IMG/VR virus record: IMGVR_UViG_3300045973_000093
Location: 1-64,000 of that record
Direction: 5' to 3' (one strand)
Length of the DNA: 64,000 nt
Origin: a virus
Positions 23,467 to 59,881 of this stretch are shown here, one piece after another (positions within the stretch are counted from its first letter, which is position 1; the number at the start of each line of letters is the position of its first letter). A program made the translations under genes and the position numbers. The notes under the pieces are model-generated. The model did no database searches. It was not told the origin of the DNA and saw only the letters and a program-made list of their open reading frames with translations.

Positions 23467-26400
23467 ATGGCCGTAATCACTCCACTGGGCGGCAACACGG
23501 CTCTCACCCCGGTCACCCAAGCACCGGACGGATACCCGGTTGAGAACGAACAGGGTGGGGCGCTCAATCAGGCCGCACGCAGTCTGAAGTCCTCACTGCT
23601 GAGCGGTGACGCCAACAGCGCCGCACACGATTACTTCGACGCGCTATCAAAGGGCGACAGGAAGAAAGCCAAGCAGCATGGTCTGCGTGCTCAGCAGCTC
23701 ATGCAAGAGGCTTCGGACGCAGCACCGCGTGTGCAGTCCTTGGGCGACGTGCATGGTGCGGGCGATGCGGGCGACTGGCTGGCAGCGCAGGCCGGTGCGG
23801 CACCGATGGCTGTCGCCAAGCCTGTGCTCGGCGGTCTGGCTGGCGCAGCGGTAGGTGCTTTCCACGGTGGCGCGTCCGGCGCAGCAGTAGGCGGCACGCT
23901 CGGCGGTCTGGGTGCGATGTACCCAGACATGCGCAACGCTGCAATGATGGAACACATGCAGGCGCTTGACGGGCAAGACCCGACACAAACGCAGGCACAG
24001 GAGGCTCTGAACCAAGGATCGTGGCAAGCAGTGGGGCAGACGCTGCCCTACGCCATTGCTCCTGAGATCGGAGCCGCAGGGCGGGTGTTCGGCGGTAAAG
24101 CCGTGCTACCCGCCGCAAAGAGTCTCACTGGGAGCTTAACTCGTGGCGCTGTTCTCCAGGGCGGTGCGGGAGCGGCTTCCAGTGAGATCGGTCATAAGTT
24201 CCAAGACCAGTACAACCCCAACCGCGACAAGTCTCACGACGCGATGGCGAACATCGACGCAGCGGCTGGCAATGCTCTGATCGGCGTGCCCTTCGAGGCC
24301 GTCGGTCATGCGGGGCAGGCTGTACACGGTACTCTGGACGCAGGACTCGATCTCGGTGCCAAGGGCGCAAAGGTGGCGGGCAAAGCCGCGATGGCGCTCG
24401 GTGGCAAAGGTGCAGAGGCAGCTAAGCAGGCGTGGGACAACCGCCCCAAGGATCTGACCGAAGCAGCAGTGCGTACGGGTGAGGCCGCAGCCGACGCCCA
24501 CACCGCTGTGGAAGACGCATTCACACGCTTCACTCAGCGCGGCAAGGACGCCGACGTGGACACACTCCTCAAGCCTCAAGGCAAGGACATGGACCAAGCT
24601 ACTTGGCGTGTCGACACCGCTGATAAACATAAAGCGACCTCTAACGTAGTCGATAAGATCTCGCGAGATCCAGGCTCGTACCCAGACTTCGTGCGGCAAG
24701 CCGCCGAGGACTATGCCAACAGCTCGAAGATGGGCGAGTCGTGGCGTCCTGTGCGCGATGCCATCAACGATTGGAAGCGCTCTGTAGACATCGCTGACTC
24801 CATCACTGAACTGTCGAATCACGTCGCCGACAAAGGCGGCAAGCTCGCAGCCGATGTAGCCAAGGCCGGTGAAGCGGTGAAGGACGCCTACCAAGGTCGT
24901 CGCGACACGCGCAGCAACGCGCAAGCACCTGATGACAAGTTCATCCCTATCTTGGCTGACGCCATTGCCCCGCACTTAGGACTGCGTACTGAGGCTGTGC
25001 AGCAACGTGTTGCGCCTGTAGCAGCACGCGCTCTGCACGACTGGATCGCCGGAGGCATGGCTGACCGCGACGGCAGCATAGCGGCACCCCGCAGTCTCTT
25101 GCGCCTGCTACCCAAAGACCCAATCAACGGTCTGTCAAAGGTCATCGACCTGATGCACCGCCAGGGCGTGATAGACGCCGTTGACTACAAGAACAAAGCC
25201 GCTGTGCTGAAAGACGCGCAGCAGCAGATCCACACCACCAGCAAAGTGGTGGGCCTGTTGAAAGACCGCCTGCTGCCGACTGAAGAAGCGACGATGGACC
25301 CAACGCAGCGCCGCAGTCTGATCGATGCGATGGCGACCGGCAAGCTCGACGAGAAGACGGCCGACAAGTGGTTCGGCCCCAACGCTGGCAACGTGCTCGA
25401 CGACCTGAGCAACATGGGGCTGTACAAGCGCCAGAAAGACATCGTCGGCACTACCGCCGAGCACGTCCCCGGCGAAGAACCCAACACGGTGGTCGAGCGC
25501 CACGAATACCACCACTACCGTGAGGCACGCGGCGATAGTCCTGCCGAGCCGTACCGCCGCAAGGGCTTCTCAACGCCCGATCCTGAGACCGGCGAGATGA
25601 CGTCGCATGACGAGCACGCCGCAGCCAGACAGCAGAAGCTGCAAGACGTGAATAAGTCCGCCGTGCAGAAAGTCGGCTACCTCGACTACCTGCGTGAGCA
25701 GTACGGTCACGACCCAGAAACCCTGATGGGGCACGCCACGGAGTTCATGTCTCGCAAGCAGGACGAGATCATGAAGATCAAGGGCAAGGGTTCGCCGGAC
25801 GAGAAGGCCAACGCCAACTGGTACGTGCTGCGCGAGACACTGGCTGGTGACCGTGGCGAGGCCACGAACATCGACCCCAAAGAGTTCGCTACGCTGGGCA
25901 AGACCAGCAAGTGGGCCGAGCAGGTAAACCATGACGAGTACGGCACCATCAAGAAGGGCCGTATCTGGCTGGAGCGCAAGAACGCCGACGGCACTGTGTC
26001 GCAGTTCGCTACCTCCACCCACAAGATCATCCAGAACATGCTCTCACGCAGCAAGGCTGAGGGCGGCGGCAGCGAGATGAGTGGTCTGGCCGGGCAGCAT
26101 CGACTGCTCATGCAGGGCTTGTCGGGGCTGGCCGAGAACGAGGCGCTGACAGGGCGCATCGGCTACAAACTGCGCGACAACCAGAAAGAACCGACGTGGC
26201 TCGGCAAGAACGGCAAGCTGCCGCCTGAGCTGCCCATGCTGGGCAACAAGGGCACGCTGGGTGCTGCAGAGAAGCTGGCGCACAACGCACTCAAACGCGA
26301 GATAGTGCGCTCGACCGAGACACAGGAGCGCCAGGAAGCAGCACAGGTCGCCGAGCAGCCCAAGCCCGCGACGGCACGTGACAAAGCCGCTGTAGCTGCT

Positions 26401-29400
26401 ACCGAGGGCGCTGCACTGCGTGCTTCGAGCGTCGTGCGTAGTGGCGTGGCGAACGCTGCGGCGTTCCTACGCAACACAGCCAAGGGCAGCATCGAACGCG
26501 CAGCTTTGATCGACGGACTGCGCACCATAGAGCGCACAGCGCACCGCGACGGCCTGTGGGACAAGCTGGTGCCGACAGAGCGCGGGCAGGCCAACGACTT
26601 GCAGGCTCGCAACGAGATGATCAACACCATCCAGAAGCGTGCCCGCAAGCTGCTGGAGTTGTTCGACGACGCGACGCACGTCGGCAAAGGTGCTGAGAAA
26701 CAGAGCGAGCGTGCCTCTGTTGATCTGCGCCGCAGCAAGTACCCACCTGCCGAGACACCAGCCGGTGAGATCGAGCAGATGAGCAAGCAGAAATCCAAGA
26801 CGACCGCGCCTGAAGATGGCGGCACTGAGAAGCCTCGCACTCACGACGAGCACACCGGCAATCGGGTCGGCGAAGAAGGTCGCCAGATGCAGCGCAAGGA
26901 TCAGGTCGCATCGCAGGATGCTGCACGCGTCTTCGGCGACGCCCACAAAGACTTGAAGTTCCGCCCGCTCTCGGGTGCTGAGAACGAAGCAGTCAAACAA
27001 CACCTCGATGAGCTTCGTGATCGGCTCGGCGATGCTATGCCAGAAATCGCTGGCGTCGCAGTTACGGACCACAACGGCTGGGCCGGTGAAGCGCACACGC
27101 CCACTGAAGGCAAGCACTACATCGCGCTATCTAGCAGCGTGTTCGACGACAAGACGCCGATGCTAGGTTCGACTGAAGGTAAGGTCGAACGTGCCATGCT
27201 GCACGAAGTGGCGCACGCGTACGACCGCAACGACGATAGTATTTCAAATCAGTCCGCGCACTTTCAAGACAGCGGGAAGTTTCGCAAAGAGATGCGCGAC
27301 GCGATGGCGCGACGCGAAGATCTGCACGATTGGTACTCGTACGTCGACGGCGCTAAGGACGCCGCTCGCGAACTGTACGCGCAGGCATTTACACTCTATC
27401 ACTACGCACCGGAGGTGATGCAGCATGAGCAACCAGAAGCCTACAAATTCTTCAAAGCACACGACAACGCCGTATGGAAACCAGTTGCCGATGGGCGGGC
27501 CAGCGAAGAAATACGTGCTCAAGCCGGGACAGAAACCGATCTACGGTCGGACACCCGCCAAAGCGCCCAAGACCCAGCCCGCGCATTCGGCAACGACACC
27601 CAAGTAGCGGCGTCGAAAGAGGAACAGGCCAAGTTCCACGAAGACATCGCCCGCCGCCTCGGCCCGGGCATGCAGTCTGCGCTTGAGCAGAACCTGTACG
27701 GCAAGAACGCCATCGGCAAGAAGATCCCAATCTCAGGCGAGTGGTCGCAAGGTCTGATTAAGGCCTCTGTGTTCGCCAAGAACCTGGGGCAGATCGGTGC
27801 GCACGAGTCGTTCCATGAGTTCTTCAACCGTTTGAAGGACCAGCCCCAAGCCGCCAAGGTGATGGACATCTTGAACAAGGCTGCGGACTCTCCCTACATC
27901 CAGCGCCAGCTCGAACGCTTGCTGGACGGCGAGATGGAAGCACTCAAGCAGATCAAGAAGGGCGCACCGCACTACCTCGAAGAGCGTCAGGCCTACATGT
28001 TTCAGTTTCACCAAGCTGGTCTCTTGAAGATTGGCCCTGAGACAGAGACCACATTCCAGAAGATCGCCCGTGTCTTCCGCACTATCACCGGCATGCTCAC
28101 CAACGACCAGAAGGCCGACCGCATCCTGCGCTCCTTCGACCGTGGTGAGATGCGCGGCGCCGACGCTGCTGCGCGTGTGCTGCACAACAACATCGAAGCA
28201 CGCGAGAACATGTACAAGGCCGTGAACTCAGCACTGAGTCCTGCGCTCACAAAACTCAGCCGCGTCGTGAACACCGCCGAGACGAACCTGCGTGCCAACG
28301 GCTACGACGACGTGCGCCGCATGTTCAAACGCAGCGTGGGTGAGTCTGGGCCTCAAGGGTTTCTGGACGCCAAAGACCATCAGATGAAGCAGTGGTCTAA
28401 CAAGGTCGCACAGATTTTCGACGGACTCCATCCGAAGGACTTAGAGCTGGCCGCACCCTACCTGCACTCAGGTGAACGTGCTACGGACCCAGCAGTCATG
28501 CGCCTCAATGCTCTACTCAAGGGCGGTAAGGTGGGTGGCAAGCAGGTCGAGGGTCTGCTGCCAGCCATGCACAAGTACCTGAACGAAGCAGGTGTGAAGC
28601 TGTGGGTGCCTGACAAGCTCGACCCGACGAAAGGTTCTTGGGAGCCGATGGGCCACGTAAAGAACTACTTCCCGCGTGTGCTCGACACGTCCCAACTCGT
28701 GCAGCGCGGCGATGAGTTCGCCACCGACCTCATGAAGCACAACAGCGCAGAGCTGAACAAGATGGCCGCAAGCATCAACGCTGAGACCAAGGACAAAGAA
28801 GGATTCGTGCCGACCACTGGTGAAGCACTGGCGAAGGCGATCACGAACCGCATGATTCAAGGTTTTGGTCAGGCCGACCTCAGCGAGACCAGCAGCGCCG
28901 TAGGCTTCAGCCCGTTCATGCAGGCTGTGAACCGCCGCACGTTGGAGTGGCTGCACCCAGAGGTCTTGAAAAAGTGGGGCGAGAAGGATGTGGCGAAGAT
29001 CCTGAACTCCTACGTGGCTCAGGGCGTCAAGCGTGCCGAGTACGTGCGCCGCTTTGGTAACGGTGGTGAGAATCTGAAGGCGGCACTCGAAGCAAAGTAT
29101 GAAGACCACGTGCAGAAGCTGGTCGACGGCGGCATGAAGAAAGAGGAAGCCGAAGCCAGAGCACTCAAGGTCGCAGCCAACGCAGCCAAGGACGTGATGG
29201 CGATGGAGGGCACGCTGGGCTACAACATCAGCAACGGCATGCGCCGGTTCCAGAACTCAGCGATGGTGTACGAGAACATGCGCACGCTCTCGATGAGCTT
29301 GTTCTCTCAGTTCATCGACCCTATGAACATGGTGGTGCGCGGCAGCACGATGGGCGACGCATGGAGCGCATACAAGCGCGGCATGCGTGAAGTCGCAGCC

Positions 29401-37978: not shown

Positions 37979-37999
37979 ATTAGAGTTCCTTAGAGTTCA
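37979..37999 (-). promoter_or_regulatory. Phased TCTAA repeat (coding overlap)
   Basis: On the minus strand TCTAAGGAACTCTAA: TCTAA repeated after 10 bp, ending just before the next ATG. It also encodes the last residues of the upstream gene and contains an AAGGAA Shine-Dalgarno, so chance similarity is possible. Confidence 0.3.
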
Positions 38000-52041: not shown

Positions 52042-52646
52042 TCTGTGTCTCCAAAAATAGCAGCATGTGCTTCGATCATCAACACAGCCATTGCGTACTC
52101 TTTACCGTGGTCCGTATCACTGTGGGTTTTCTCAACCGCTACTATGAATTCATCCAAGAACCCAGTGAAGCAACCCGCTTTAATTACGATTCCTTTATCG
52201 GTAATGAATGACACTAAGTAGTCATAGCGTGAACCGATTGGACCGCACTGGAAGAATGGTCGCTTACCGACAAGCTTTCCTAACTTTTCACCCAAGTTCG
52301 CGCCACGCAAGTTCGCGCCACGCAAGTCCGCGCCACGCAAGTTCACGCCATACAAGTTCGCGCCACCCAAGTTCGCGCCACGCAAGTTCGCGCCATACAA
52401 GTCCGCGCCACGCAAGTTCGCGCCACGCAAGTCCGCGCCATACAAGTCCGCGCCACGCAAGTTCGCGCCACCCAAGTCCGCGCCATACAAGTCCGCGCCA
52501 CGCAAGTTCGCGCCACCCAAGTCCGCGCCACGCAAGTTCTCCCTGCTAAAAGTTGCTTTCTCAAGCATCTGACGCGTTGTCATTCCTGCTTCGCCTTCAA
52601 ACATTACTGCGCGTGTGTAACCATGTCTAATTTGTGGATTAGTCAT
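52038..52646 (-). CDS. Pentapeptide-repeat protein
   Basis: 202 aa. About 16 consecutive pentapeptides of the form A(D/N)LxG occupy residues 37-120 ([19 protein letters not shown] and so on), predicting a right-handed square beta-helix. Such proteins (Qnr/MfpA type) can mimic DNA and bind topoisomerases. A separate C-terminal domain ([59 protein letters not shown]) is typical of phage pentapeptide proteins. The exact target is unknown. DNA of the repeat part is a 15-bp minisatellite. Confidence 0.9.
52283..52538 (-). repeat. 15-bp tandem repeat encoding the pentapeptides
   Basis: Roughly 17 copies of a 15-bp unit, on the plus strand near CGCGCCACGCAAGTT or CGCGCCATACAAGTC. It keeps frame, so changes in copy number alter helix length only. 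Confidence 0.9.
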
Positions 52647-55579: not shown

Positions 55580-55982
55580 GTGCTTCGGCGATCCACTCCA
55601 GACCGTCGTACTCTTCGATAAACCACTCGACGTCGTCCGGGATCTCGACTACTTTCAGATTTGCATAGCGGTCGTTGGCCATAGCACCCAGTGCTTCGAC
55701 CGCAGCCACGAGGTCTGGATCGTCGCGATCGAAGCTGCTGGCGCTGACGGTCGCGTTGCGGTATGCAGCGTTGTACGCTGTGCGTTCTGTCTGTGACATG
55801 TTCTCCCATGTCTTGTAGTCCCACTTAGCAGCGTGCTGCTCAGGTGGCACGGTCCAGTACGTTGTGTACAGCCCTTTGTTCTCTGGATAGAGCGTGAGGC
55901 CACGGCGCTTGGCTATGAAGTCGATGGCCGCAGCACTGAGACCGAAGCCTCCGTGACATTTGTTGATTACGATTTTTTTCAT
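55563..55982 (-). CDS. Conserved phage protein, unknown
   Basis: 139 aa. MKKIVINKCHGGFGLSAAAIDF at the start and FDRDDPDLVAAVEALGAMANDRYANLKVVEIPDDVEWFIEEYDGLEWIAEAHETW at the end match a family present in many phages (often called KIVINxCxGGFGLS). It is cytosolic with unknown function. ATGA coupled to the primase-helicase. Confidence 0.75.
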   Translation of the reverse strand: MKKIVINKCHGGFGLSAAAIDFIAKRRGLTLYPENKGLYTTYWTVPPEQHAAKWDYKTWENMSQTERTAYNAAYRNATVSASSFDRDDPDLVAAVEALGAMANDRYANLKVVEIPDDVEWFIEEYDGLEWIAEAHETWS

Positions 55983-58438
55983 TTCACCCTCTTCAGTTGT
56001 TTAGGTTCTTGTGCTGTGAACTGAGCTGCCATTTCTTTGAGCCACGAGGCTGGTGCCCGCCACTCAACACGCAGCCCGTAGGTCAGCTCGTTGCCGATGC
56101 GGATACGTTCAGTCTTGATGCCACGGTGTTTGAGCATGCTGGTGAACTTGTTAGGTGTCTTAGGCATATTTCCTACGCAGTGCTCGAATATGACGAGCAG
56201 CTCGTCGCGTGTCAGCTTGCTCTCGGTTGTCACCATAGAGTCCTTGCCGTTTTTGAGCAGCACGCTTGTTTTGTAGCTGCCAGTGCCAGGACTCTCGATC
56301 ATGGTCTTGATCTCACGCTTCATCATGTCGTGGTACAGGTGTGCATAGCCTGCGTTGCCGCCACTGAGCTGTAGCGCCATGTTCAGGTCCATGCGCAGTC
56401 CCCACAGGGCCATGATGTCGCCGTTGGCGAGCTGGTTCGTGGTTACGTCGATGCTGGTCTTGTTGTTCTCAACTAGCTCGGCGTGTGCTGCGTTCTTGAT
56501 AGCTGTGGCAGCGACCTGTACGTCGGCCTTGCGCGTCATGATGTACTGCATGAAGTGCTCCAGCTCTTTGGGCAGGGCCTCATCGATCTCACGCTGTGTG
56601 ATCTGCAGCCGCTCGGTTTGGAAGTGACCTACGTTGTAACGACGGTCGTTGCCTTTGATCTGCACGGGGTCTGGTTCGTTGGAGCTGAACAGCAGGCCTG
56701 TGTAGTTCCTGATCTGAGCCGCTGCGCGGTTCATACCACGGATAGTCACATAGTCCTCAGTGATGAAGTTACGCAGGTCGCCGCTGATGATGTCTTTGCG
56801 GACTGATGCTGAGACCTTGATCTCATCGATGAAAGCTATGAGCGCTTTTTCCATCCAGCCATTGAATTTTTCTTCAAGTTCGCTTGCTCGTTTGGACTGC
56901 ACATAGTCGCGCCCGAGTAGCGGTGCCAGGATGTTATTGACAATCAGTCCTTTGCCTGTGCCCTCAGTTCCATGCAGTACCCACGCCGTCTTGGGTTTGA
57001 TACGGTGCTGGAAGATGACTGCCAGCCAGTTGAGCCATGTCTCGAATGTCTCGTCGTCTTTGCCGCCGCTGATGGCATGCATCATGATTCGCTTGATTAG
57101 CGGGCACTTGGACAGTAAGCCTTTGGTTGTGAAGTCCTGGTGGAAGTAGGGGCTGGGCACATAGGTGTTGATCACACGTGCTGTTTCGTCAATGATGACT
57201 GTGTTTTGAGGATTGAATTGCAAGTCCCATACGGGTATGACATCGAACGGAGGCAGGTTGTGGTTCTGCATCCAGTGATTGAGCTGCAGCTCTGACTTCG
57301 CAGGATGCAGCTCTAAGTACTTTGTGTCTTCGCGCCAGATTCCATTCCAGTATTGCGCCGTGCGCTTGTCACGGAATGCCAGCACCAGCTCGCCACCTTC
57401 GATGGGCTGGGATTGCTGGATCTTTTGCTGAGTCTTGATGTCTTTGTAATAGTCAGGCAGTAGCTCTTTGGTGAGGTAGCTTGGTTCGCCTTTGAAGTTA
57501 TGGATGAGTTCAGGGTCATTGGCGTGATGCCAATAGCCCCAGCTATCGCCACCATTGAGATTGAAGTAAACGTATCCACGATCTTCCTTGCGTCCAGTGA
57601 TGATGGCCTGTCCGGGCTTGGGTTGCACCTCATGCTCGCCGACCCACTTGGTTGCGGCCTTGATGGGTGGTAGCTTGGATTCTTTACGCAGTTCGTTGCG
57701 CAGCTCACGAGCTTCTTCCTTGGTCTGCTCCATCGTTCGCTCTGGGAGTACGAGCTTGGCACGTAGGAACTGGTTCTTACCGGCTACGAATTGGATTCGC
57801 TCAGAGTTCTTTAGAGTGCAAGGCACGCCTTTGCCTATGGATGGCGGTGCTATGTACAGGAGCTTGTCGTTCTGACATGCGGTGATGTCAATGGGCCAGT
57901 GCAGTGCTGCGCCCGTGCGACTGAGTGTGATGCCCTTCTTGAGTGTGGGATCTGTGAGGTTCTTGTCCATGAGCCATGTCTTGACGTGCGAGGCACTGAC
58001 CTTGGCGTCCATCATGATGAACACGTGAGCAGATAGTTTGGTGTTGCCGTCCACTCCACTCGATGCTGAGTACTGGACGATGTGTGCCACGTCTTTGAAC
58101 TCAGTGATGGAGGACATGAAGTCCTTCACTGAAGTGTAGGGCGCTCCATCCAAGTCCAGACACAGCCAAGATGACGCATCGTCACTCTTTGTTGCCCCAG
58201 CACGTGACTCGCCATTGAGATCTTTGTGAAGCTGTCCTTTGACAAGACAGTGTCCGAGAGATGCGTGCTTGACGAGGGCGGTGTGGAAGTCTTTGAGCGA
58301 AGCACATTGGACTGAGTGCGAGGTGAAGTCTTTGACATTTGGGTAGCTCGATTTCTGTAGTTCGCCGCCCGCATCAAGCCAGAAGGACTTGGTGAGTGGC
58401 GTATCGGCGGAGAGGAAATAGATGGTGGTGGCGGCCAT
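55979..58438 (-). CDS. Primase-helicase (DUF5906 / SF3-like)
   Basis: 819 aa. The N-terminal 300 residues carry a primase-like core (SSWLCLDLDGAPYTSVKDFM, VQYSASSGVDG, SAHVFIMMD). Residues about 480-640 form a DUF5906/SF3-like helicase: Walker A HGTEGTGKG (about 488), ALIAFIDEIK (Walker B, about 520), and FSSNEPDPVQIKGNDRRYNV (sensor and arginine finger). It would start and unwind replication forks. It lies next to the putative origin, transcribed away from it, with a phased TCTAA repeat about 70 bp upstream of its start. Confidence 0.92.
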   Translation of the reverse strand: MAATTIYFLSADTPLTKSFWLDAGGELQKSSYPNVKDFTSHSVQCASLKDFHTALVKHASLGHCLVKGQLHKDLNGESRAGATKSDDASSWLCLDLDGAPYTSVKDFMSSITEFKDVAHIVQYSASSGVDGNTKLSAHVFIMMDAKVSASHVKTWLMDKNLTDPTLKKGITLSRTGAALHWPIDITACQNDKLLYIAPPSIGKGVPCTLKNSERIQFVAGKNQFLRAKLVLPERTMEQTKEEARELRNELRKESKLPPIKAATKWVGEHEVQPKPGQAIITGRKEDRGYVYFNLNGGDSWGYWHHANDPELIHNFKGEPSYLTKELLPDYYKDIKTQQKIQQSQPIEGGELVLAFRDKRTAQYWNGIWREDTKYLELHPAKSELQLNHWMQNHNLPPFDVIPVWDLQFNPQNTVIIDETARVINTYVPSPYFHQDFTTKGLLSKCPLIKRIMMHAISGGKDDETFETWLNWLAVIFQHRIKPKTAWVLHGTEGTGKGLIVNNILAPLLGRDYVQSKRASELEEKFNGWMEKALIAFIDEIKVSASVRKDIISGDLRNFITEDYVTIRGMNRAAAQIRNYTGLLFSSNEPDPVQIKGNDRRYNVGHFQTERLQITQREIDEALPKELEHFMQYIMTRKADVQVAATAIKNAAHAELVENNKTSIDVTTNQLANGDIMALWGLRMDLNMALQLSGGNAGYAHLYHDMMKREIKTMIESPGTGSYKTSVLLKNGKDSMVTTESKLTRDELLVIFEHCVGNMPKTPNKFTSMLKHRGIKTERIRIGNELTYGLRVEWRAPASWLKEMAAQFTAQEPKQLKRVK

Positions 58439-58506
58439 TTTGAGTTCCGTTTTTGTTTTTCTCTGTTCCGAGTTTTGGTACAGGGAACTGAGAACTGGGC
58501 GAGAGC

Positions 58507-58524
58507 AGATTAGATCACGTTAGA
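58507..58524 (-). promoter_or_regulatory. Phased TCTAA repeat before primase-helicase
   Basis: Minus-strand TCTAACGTGATCTAATCT, about 70 bases before the primase-helicase ATG. A plausible early or middle promoter. Confidence 0.5.
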
Positions 58525-58640
58525 GTTGAACGAGTAATAGTCATTTTTTATTGATCTTTCACGACTCATTGGCACACAGACGGAACATGCTTTGGAACGC
58601 TATAGCTTCCCTCTGAGCCACCCTCTCTTTGTTCCATTGT

Positions 58641-58702
58641 TCTAATATATTATTATTATTAATAGAGAGAGAGAGTAGAGAAGAGAGTGTGTATATATAT
58701 AC
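58641..58702. repeat. AT-rich and GA microsatellite (putative unwinding element)
   Basis: Successive (TAT)n, (GA)n and (TA)n runs within 62 bases, the most AT-rich part of the gene-free region and a candidate DNA unwinding element. Confidence 0.55.
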
Positions 58703-58790
58703 TGTGGGGAGAGTGAAACACGTTTCGGAACGGAACAAGCCCTGTCCGACGTCCCACGTGCTCAGTCCCATGTTCGATGTTCTCAAACTG

Positions 58791-58849
58791 TATAAACTGT
58801 TTATATCAATGCGGTTCTTTGCTCATTGATATAAACTGTTTATATCAAT
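58791..58849. promoter_or_regulatory. Two copies of a TATAAACTGTTTATATCAAT operator-like element
   Basis: Copies at 58791-58810 and 58830-58849, 39 bp apart. The second is part of a perfect inverted repeat, ATTGATATAAAC and GTTTATATCAAT around a single T (58825-58849). This is a strong candidate binding site for a dimeric repressor or an initiator. Confidence 0.65.
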
Positions 58850-58875
58850 ACAGTCACATAGCTCCCTGGTTGTTC

Positions 58876-58898
58876 AAAAATGTGCGACGCACATTTTT
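58876..58898. terminator. Bidirectional terminator-like hairpin
   Basis: AAAAATGTGC / GCACATTTTT with a GAC loop; A- and T-tracts on both sides. Confidence 0.65.
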
Positions 58899-58933
58899 TA
58901 TTTCTTCGTACGCAGTACGACGCGCTGAGTTTG

Positions 58934-58969
58934 AAAAACAAAACGCCCACACGCGTGTGCGTGTGAGCG
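58934..58969 (-). terminator. Rho-independent terminator (leftward unit end)
   Basis: Minus strand: 11-bp stem CGCTCACACGC/GCGTGTGGGCG (one G-T) with ACAC loop, then TTTTGTTTTT. Ends the 59.0-60.6 kb unit. Confidence 0.85.
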
Positions 58970-58975
58970 AGTTGG

Positions 58976-59881
58976 TTACGCGGCGGTTGTGACTTTGATG
59001 CCGTTGTCCAGAGTCGTTGTCACTTTCTCAGTTTGGACTGGGCGCGGAGCACGTTGCACTTTCTTCGCTGCAACTTTCTTGACGCGCTTTGCCTTTGGTG
59101 CTTTGGGCGCAGACATCTGTTCGATGAGGTCAGGCATGAGGCGCTGGATGATGATGTGATCACCAACACCGAGCACTGTGTCCCCAGACCGACCGAACAA
59201 CGTGTTGTTGATGCAGGTCTGGAGTGCGCGGTTGAGTGAAGCCATCAGCTTGTTCGCCAAATATTCTTTGACGTCCGAATCCAGTTGGCTGTAGTTCTCA
59301 TCGTCCTCGTCGTCCATCGCGACTGCGAACACGTTGTCGATCACGTATTCGACTGCACCGGCGCGTTGCTTGCGCAGATTGGCGAAGTGGTTGTCCGAGT
59401 TGAGTCGCTCCTTCTTTGCAGCAGCGATCATGTCGGCAGTGACGGTGATGCCCAGACTTGCAAGCATGGGCACAGCTTCCTTGTTGATGTCACGTTCGCG
59501 CTGCGGCCCTGTCATCATCGTGATGGTGGACTGGATAGAGCCGAGGTCGTCGTCTGCCTTGCGGCCAGTCGTGACCATCGTGCTGTGCAGCAACTCGTAG
59601 CGCCATTCAACATGCAGCTTGAAGAGCTTCTTGTTGGCAGCGATCACGTCCTTGCCAGCGCCAGTCTCAGGTCCTGAGATCAGAGCAGCGAACTCACGAC
59701 GATCCAGTTCCTTGAACTCGTGGTAGCCAGCAGCCTGCAGCTTCTGAACGATAGCGTCAGCCGCAGCAAACAGCGAAGCGTTGACCGAGCCAACCATCGA
59801 CAGCCAGACTTGCTTGCGGATCGCAGCGCTGGGGATGTCCTTGACGAATTGGGTGAGATTGAAAGATTTGTTGAAAGACAT
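58976..59881 (-). CDS. Large leftward-unit protein, unknown (301 aa)
   Basis: MSFNKSFNLTQFVKDIPSAAIRKQVWLSMVGSVNASLFAAADAIVQKLQ is a helical start; FAVAMDDEDDENYSQLDSDVKEYLANKLMASLNRALQTCINNTLFGRSGDTV is the centre. The last 60 residues are basic (PKAPKAKRVKKVAAKKVQRAPRP), a likely nucleic-acid-binding tail. It is the last and largest gene of the unit next to the origin region. I do not recognise a family; a DNA-binding or replication-control role is a guess from the tail and position. Confidence 0.65.
   Translation of the reverse strand: MSFNKSFNLTQFVKDIPSAAIRKQVWLSMVGSVNASLFAAADAIVQKLQAAGYHEFKELDRREFAALISGPETGAGKDVIAANKKLFKLHVEWRYELLHSTMVTTGRKADDDLGSIQSTITMMTGPQRERDINKEAVPMLASLGITVTADMIAAAKKERLNSDNHFANLRKQRAGAVEYVIDNVFAVAMDDEDDENYSQLDSDVKEYLANKLMASLNRALQTCINNTLFGRSGDTVLGVGDHIIIQRLMPDLIEQMSAPKAPKAKRVKKVAAKKVQRAPRPVQTEKVTTTLDNGIKVTTAA

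Follow-up and report, generated by a model that had tools for sequence, protein, structure and literature searches.

A putative replication origin beside a phage primase-helicase and the covariation of its iterons with two primase residues

The gap upstream of the primase-helicase gene

The intergenic region at positions 58439-58975 of a 64,000-nt window (the whole stretch of DNA analysed here), taken from the 66,056-bp virus contig IMGVR_UViG_3300045973_000093, lies exactly between the ATG of a gene for a primase-helicase and the stop codon of a gene for a 301-amino-acid protein (p301), both of which run leftward (Table 1). A first-pass annotation, made from the sequence alone, had described this gap as a gene-free region of about 540 bp between two leftward units, beside the primase-helicase gene, with eight (C/T/G)GGAAC hexamers. 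The region is real and measures 537 bp, and all eight sites were located: GGAAC starts at 58484, 58582, 58594, 58727 and 58732, and its complement GTTCC at 58444, 58465 and 58631, the preceding base being C in five, T in two and G in one of the sites. The conserved iteron unit is a pentamer rather than a hexamer. With eight sites, as compared to a window mean of 0.83 per 537 bp, the gap is the window's maximum; elsewhere no 400-bp stretch contains more than three. Eight sites were obtained in 0 of 2000 first-order Markov simulations of the gap with the same dinucleotide make-up (mean 0.80). Short repeats are clustered in the gap beyond chance, as is expected of an iteron origin. A short tandem repeat that includes the GTTCC word (TTAGAGTTCC, 1.9 copies, 37980-37998) is located far from the gap and is probably due to chance.

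An AT-rich unwinding element, the second feature expected of such an origin, is located alongside the repeats. The TAT/GA/TA microsatellite reported by the first-pass annotation (approximately 58641-58704) is the least stable 60 bp of the window, and the least stable 100-bp and 200-bp stretches of the 64 kb are also found inside the gap. The cumulative GC-skew, which had been suggested as a check, indeed has its minimum near the gap, at 55709, but this minimum is confounded by gene strand and is not decisive.

The primase-helicase matches phrog_24712 over its full length (residues 6-803), as expected of a Kochitakasuvirus-type primase, and is 40% identical to the primase of Pseudomonas phage KPP25. 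A D5/VapE-like helicase is linked to the primase, DUF5906 scoring above the cut-off in the window protein and being matched, along with the VapE-like domain, in 8/8 sequences of alignment A5. The helicase part of the family matches the NrS-1 primase structures 6k9c/6k9e with an E-value of 7e-51.

p301 is present in four IMG/VR contigs (loci L006-L009) with 57-70% identity in the best segment, and in each of them the gap and the primase gene follow in the same order, the L009 contig stopping early in the primase. The aligned gaps share one layout, in which forward sites are followed by a TA/pyrimidine-rich tract, then by reverse sites and a purine block, and finally by further forward sites, a CTCTAA element and the primase gene. 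At the same aligned positions the word is GTTCC in the window and L009, CTTCC plus ATTCC in L007 and L008, and GTACC in L006, so that among these five phages, the window included, the aligned sites switch word in concert. The absence of the hexamers from close relatives had been named as an observation that would refute an origin. Such an absence is literally true for L006-L008, which have no GGAAC at the aligned positions. It does not amount to a refutation, because the sites persist with another word and the primase residues shift with the word, as described below. Among phage records, the sole DNA similarity was a 62-bp stretch of coding sequence matching KPP25-like phages, and no match was returned among genome contigs.

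Iteron words and primase residues across the phage family

A single-query search of IMG/VR with the window primase returned nothing; with the alignment extended to KPP25 and phiA008, 80 loci were collected. Most of these primase genes are preceded by the same layout, which consists of forward iterons, an AT/pyrimidine stretch, reverse iterons 8 bp apart, often a consensus for integration host factor (IHF), forward iterons and then the primase gene. The carriers are dozens of environmental phages related to KPP25. The IHF consensus WATCAANNNNTTR was found in 18 of 56 gaps, mostly 11-26 bp past the last site, whereas shuffled sequences gave a mean of 1.3 and a maximum of 5. In the orientation of the middle array the iteron words mostly follow the pattern NNWA(C/G), namely GGAAC, GGAAG, AGAAG, CGAAG, GGTAC, GCTAG, GTAAG, GTAAC, ATAAG and CTAAC, with ATGAG as a further word, and all iterons of an array change together from phage to phage. 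A GCTAC cluster in L058 was rejected, as it is a repetitive stretch and not an array of the conserved layout. Two other observations concern the same genes. The primases of L088, L093 and L131 carry 276-residue inserts within the Walker A motif (GTEG|TGKG), which start with CLAGDT/CLAPET, end with HN/KN and are probably inteins. In L023, L027, L079, L090 and L171, a small gene resembling those for helix-turn-helix proteins of the XRE/Cro type is located directly 5' of the primase gene, sometimes between it and the array.

For the comparison of word and protein, words were assigned by eye in 49 phages with a complete primase, and later in 63, and every primase column was scanned. The permutation z scores given here ignore the phylogenetic tree, which is taken into account by the independent-pairs test below. 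For base 5 of the pentamer, residue 780 was the top column and explained all of the entropy, with a z score of 30 in the 49 phages (next column 10.7) and of 46 in the 63. For base 2, and for bases 2-3 together, the best column was residue 778 (z of 14 for base 2 in the 49 phages). Among the 49 phages, Trp780 was found with G at base 5 in 37/37 cases and Arg, Lys or Ser780 with C in 12/12. In the larger set base 5 is correctly predicted from residue 780 in all 63 phages, the 41 with Trp all having G and the 22 with Arg, Lys or Ser all having C, and this agreement is 59/59 once the four phages in which the difference at 780 had been noticed beforehand are excluded. At residue 778, Lys or Arg goes with GA at bases 2-3 and Gln with T at base 3; phages with T at base 2 mainly have Pro, Val, Ala, His or Tyr. 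L034, L128 and L165, which have T or mixed C/T at base 5 and Ser, Phe and Asn at residue 780, respectively, fall outside this two-state code without contradicting it and were excluded from the 63.

Residues 780 and 778 were still the top columns for bases 5 and 2 when the words were called by a fully automated procedure, whose output includes two Arg-G cases and one Trp-C case; the caller is imperfect, as its base 5 was correct in 42 of 46 calls when compared with the reading by eye. In new contigs from a second scan the caller proposed the words before the residues were read. Residue 780 then agreed in L123, L131, L151, L157, L162 and L165, and in L080, the word of which is doubtful; for residue 778 there was agreement in L123, L151, L157 and L162 but not in L131 and L080. 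L166 has a broken primase frame and was left unscored. A low-confidence model places residues 778 and 780 two apart on the strand that follows a predicted recognition helix, and their side chains would therefore point the same way. The word and the residues also differ together between close relatives: L059 (GGAAG, Arg778) and L054 (GTAAG, Tyr778) are 87% identical, L006 (GGTAC, Gln-Arg) and L008 (GGAAG, Arg-Trp) are 82% identical, and L036/L123 and L025/L028 are further sister pairs of this kind.

The array and the gene are linked in most genomes and the z scores are uncorrected for the tree, which raises the question whether word and residues were simply co-inherited without any physical recognition. 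On a tree of the 63 primases from which the C-terminal domain was left out, the minimum number of changes is 9 for base 5, 13 for base 2 and 25 for the whole word. Trp780 tracks G at base 5 in 63/63 phages and in 8/8 independent pairs (sign test p-value of 0.008), and Lys or Arg778 tracks G at base 2 in 58/63, three of the five exceptions being GGTAC phages with Gln778. Moreover, many columns share the tree, yet it is 780 that ranks first for base 5 and 778 for base 2, and arrays displaced from the primase gene still match the residues. In view of these findings, shared ancestry alone is a highly improbable explanation for the covariation.

The displaced arrays were found in phages without a primase-adjacent array, where the primase residues led to arrays elsewhere. 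These include nine GCTAG words in 400 bp located 4.7 kb upstream in L046, nine GGTAC words each in L052 and L093, ten GGAAC words in L061 and, read from the sequence, GCTAG as expected in L171. In L060/L063 the word found was GAAAC where xTAAC was expected, i.e. base 5 was right and base 2 wrong. GGAAC in L061 and GAAAC in L060/L063 are the top clusters over all words tried. Since these arrays were found with knowledge of the prediction, they form a weaker set than the blind one. Three to four perfect copies of the DnaA box TGTGGATAA lie beside the iterons in L052 (640-1200) and L093 (2620-3180), and for this reason some of these phages may also use the host initiator.

The same approach was applicable to a cultured phage. 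The primase of the Kochitakasuvirus phages KPP25 and phiR18 (ORF056) belongs to the same family as the window primase, and in KPP25 its residues Ser778 and Arg780 predict a word ending in AC. Indeed, GTAAC occurs eight times in 400 bp around an AT-rich tract, with base 5 as predicted by Arg780. These repeats lie in an unannotated gap of 676 bp (26219-26894 of AB910393, L172), which has GTAAC/GTGAC repeats and is 97-100% conserved in related isolates. In contrast to the window array, which adjoins the primase gene, this gap is located about 12 kb from it. On the basis of its sequence we regard it as a candidate origin of KPP25.

Interpretation as a replication origin

What the computations show are the iteron sites together with the unwinding element, a layout conserved among relatives, and a near-complete covariation of word and residues. 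The best-supported reading of these features is the one proposed by the first-pass annotation, namely that an initiator binds the iterons and that an unwinding element accompanies them, next to the primase-helicase gene. We consider, with a probability of about 0.83, that the gap is a replication origin at which the primase-helicase binds the iterons via a C-terminal winged helix, opens the AT tract, loads and primes. The steps of this scheme, from direct binding, opening, self-loading and priming to the start of replication at the gap, are ones that we infer. The primase-helicase would bind the GGAAC iterons through its own C-terminal winged helix, in which residue 780 would recognise base 5 and residue 778 bases 2-3 of the pentamer. 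Binding on either side of the AT/pyrimidine tract would open this tract, and the same protein would then assemble there as a helicase and subsequently make the first primer.

Several results weigh against such an origin or the proposed mode of its recognition. The winged helix, consisting of a helix-turn-helix and a hairpin, is a low-confidence prediction with a mean predicted local distance difference test score (pLDDT) of 34. A profile of the C-terminal domain matched no solved structure in the PDB by sequence, and its hhalign comparison with the C-terminus of P4 alpha gave a probability of 0.4%, i.e. no similarity. There is no DnaA box in the window and no IHF consensus in the gap. In some relatives, for example L030, L064, L077, L089 and L092, an array was not seen within the DNA examined; none was found for L023 and L079 either, and L080, L085 and L161 have none that is clear. 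Lastly, two phages depart from the pattern at residue 778, as L131 combines Arg with GTAAG and L083 combines Ala with CGAAG.

The first-pass annotation had named two candidate binders of the hexamers, the primase-helicase and p301. The former is favoured, as residues 778 and 780 predict the word. p301, which has a basic tail, is encoded next to the gap and conserved alongside it in L006-L009; this would be compatible with an iteron-binding initiator or a partition-type protein acting at the gap. It was not found next to most arrays of the conserved layout, however, and the word is predicted by primase residues instead. Since p301 turned up in just a few of the phages with a conserved origin layout, it was rejected as the iteron reader, and a role as initiator or partition-type protein appears most improbable.

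It is also conceivable that the iterons are operators through which the primase-helicase, or its C-terminal domain, controls its own operon, with the true origin being located elsewhere. In most relatives the array is positioned directly 5' of the primase gene, from which it is separated by a promoter-like element, and three of the window sites adjoin the primase start. Arrays located 1-12 kb from the primase gene nevertheless retain the cognate word and an AT-rich tract, some of them are accompanied by DnaA boxes or IHF sites, and within the window no duplex is weaker than that of the gap. We favour an origin over a mere operator because the primase-helicase itself appears to read the word, because the gap is the easiest-melting DNA of the window, because the layout matches the origins of elements with comparable initiators, and because arrays that have left the vicinity of the primase gene retain their cognate word and an AT-rich composition. 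A purely regulatory function is thus unlikely, but autoregulation of the primase may well coexist with an origin.

An origin bound by a replicative helicase encoded nearby has precedents. In the staphylococcal initiator helicases SaPI Rep and SCCmec Cch2, the C-terminal domain binds iterons near the protein's own gene, and Cch2 requires a 5-base iteron, AAGTG, for unwinding (PMC7581432). Their origins are located downstream of the helicase gene, whereas those of the window family are usually upstream; furthermore, Cch2 has three iterons, while the window family combines primase and helicase in one chain and varies its word with two residues. The alpha protein of satellite phage P4 is a one-chain primase-helicase whose winged helix binds 8-base repeats, after which it unwinds and primes (PMC4234260); the type 1 repeats of the P4 ori and crr are annotated in NC_001609. 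P4 alpha has a bacterial-type primase domain (PMC4234260), unlike the window protein, and the C-terminal domains are without sequence similarity, i.e. homology to the P4 origin-binding domain was not found. The closest solved structures for the helicase part are those of the NrS-1 phage primase (6k9c, 6k9e and 6lrb), to whose C-terminus the C-terminal domain has no detectable relation. As this domain is not united with P4 or NrS-1 by sequence, we liken the window protein to P4 alpha in its working but do not place it in the P4 family. Altogether, the window system is very probably an iteron origin, with inferred activity, that is bound by its own primase-helicase in the manner of SaPI Rep, Cch2 and P4 alpha.

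Joint variation of an initiator and its iterons has precedents as well. Closely related geminiviruses carry different 5- to 6-base iterons, to which residues of the initiator Rep, with its iteron-related domain, correspond (Arguello-Astorga and Ruiz-Medrano 2001, as cited in PMC12548392), but Rep is a rolling-circle initiator of single-stranded DNA viruses, unrelated to the window primase in protein and mechanism. In RepA of the PLE satellites of Vibrio cholerae, the DNA-binding domain covaries with the origin and has been swapped more than once (PMC8263062). That protein is a RepA_N initiator with iterons of about 30 bp and modules exchanged by recombination, whereas in the window family single residues and single bases change. 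What appears to be new is a code at the level of single residues in an initiator of the helicase type, together with how often it has switched in nature; we found no prior account of this in the open-access literature as far as searched.

The view that origin and initiator changed together many times follows from the finding that two primase residues predict the word across about 60 phages. We give even odds to the idea that residues 778 and 780 constitute a natural two-residue code, setting the word almost like a lookup table, and that array and residues were re-specified together time after time, with at least 25 changes of word, perhaps driven by origin-targeting nucleases or by satellites that copy the word. 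The action of Odn against PLE origins offers an analogy for such origin-targeting pressure. How an initiator and its origin shift their specificity jointly without losing replication is an old question, for which this one phage family provides dozens of natural experiments. The code also makes part of the origin word readable from the primase sequence, it gives concrete binding predictions, and it located the unannotated candidate origin of the cultured phage KPP25.

Features of the locus

The perfect 25-bp palindrome and the two terminator-like hairpins (58876-58898 and 58944-58969) reported by the first-pass annotation were confirmed, and all of them fall outside the conserved origin core. 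The palindrome, ATTGATATAAACTGTTTATATCAAT, spans 58825-58849 with 12-bp arms and a 1-nt centre, and a partial second copy lies 39 bp away.

Table 1. Positions of the features at and around the gap. Near relatives are given by locus number.
Feature	Position	Strand	Evidence or remark
Putative replication origin, whole intergenic region	58439..58975	- (read in primase direction)	Gene-free; position kept between p301 and primase in L006-L009; dozens of relatives keep the layout 5' of primase
Left cluster of iterons TTGTTCCGTTCCGAAAC, forward sites at 58732-58736 and 58727-58731	58722..58738	-	Alignment; L007/L008 have CTTCC and L006 GTACC at the aligned place
Unwinding element, TAT/GA/TA tract	~58641..58704	.	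Least stable 60-bp window of 64 kb, z 5.5
Middle array of reverse iterons TTAGAACAATGGAACAAAG, AGAAC and GGAAC at a spacing of 8 bp	58627..58645	-	Relatives have homologous arrays with 8-bp spacing
Block GAGGGTGGCTCAGAGGGAAGC between middle and right iterons	58605..58625	-	Conserved in near relatives (alignment); about 1/3 of other relatives have the IHF consensus here
Right iteron pair CGTTCCAAAGCATGTTCCG (58594-58598, 58582-58586)	58581..58599	-	Alignment
Conserved element CTCTAACGTGATCTAATCTG, probable primase-gene promoter	58506..58525	-	Kept in near relatives; L028 equivalent TTGACC-17-TAGAAT
Three additional GGAAC/GTTCC sites (58444, 58465, 58484) adjoining the primase start	58444..58488	.	
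Pair of TATAAACTGTTTATA palindromes separated by 39 bp, possible operator for a regulator, not iteron	58788..58849	.	L008 has a single copy at the equivalent position, directly behind its p301 homologue
Terminator-like hairpin AAAAATGTGCGACGCACATTTTT with T tract	58876..58898	.	
Terminator hairpin of the p301 transcript, T tail	58944..58969	-	
Primase-helicase, 819 aa, proposed initiator	55979..58438	-	phrog_24712 E 4.6e-193; DUF5906 E 8.6e-19
Predicted C-terminal winged helix, residues ~740-794, proposed iteron reader	56057..56221	-	Best covarying residues here; helix-turn-helix and beta hairpin in low-confidence model
Proposed specificity residues, codons of Arg778 (56105-56107) and Arg780 (56099-56101)	56099..56107	-	Covariation
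p301, 301 aa, upstream of origin, not general iteron reader	58976..59881	-	Homologues only in L006-L009, L022 and, weakly, L021

An Rfam search of the region returned no match, and the AlphaFold models of p301 and the primase were too uncertain for fold searches. Elsewhere in the window, at 52289-52539, a 15-bp repeat of 16.7 copies is found within a gene for a 202-residue product that resembles a pentapeptide-repeat protein.
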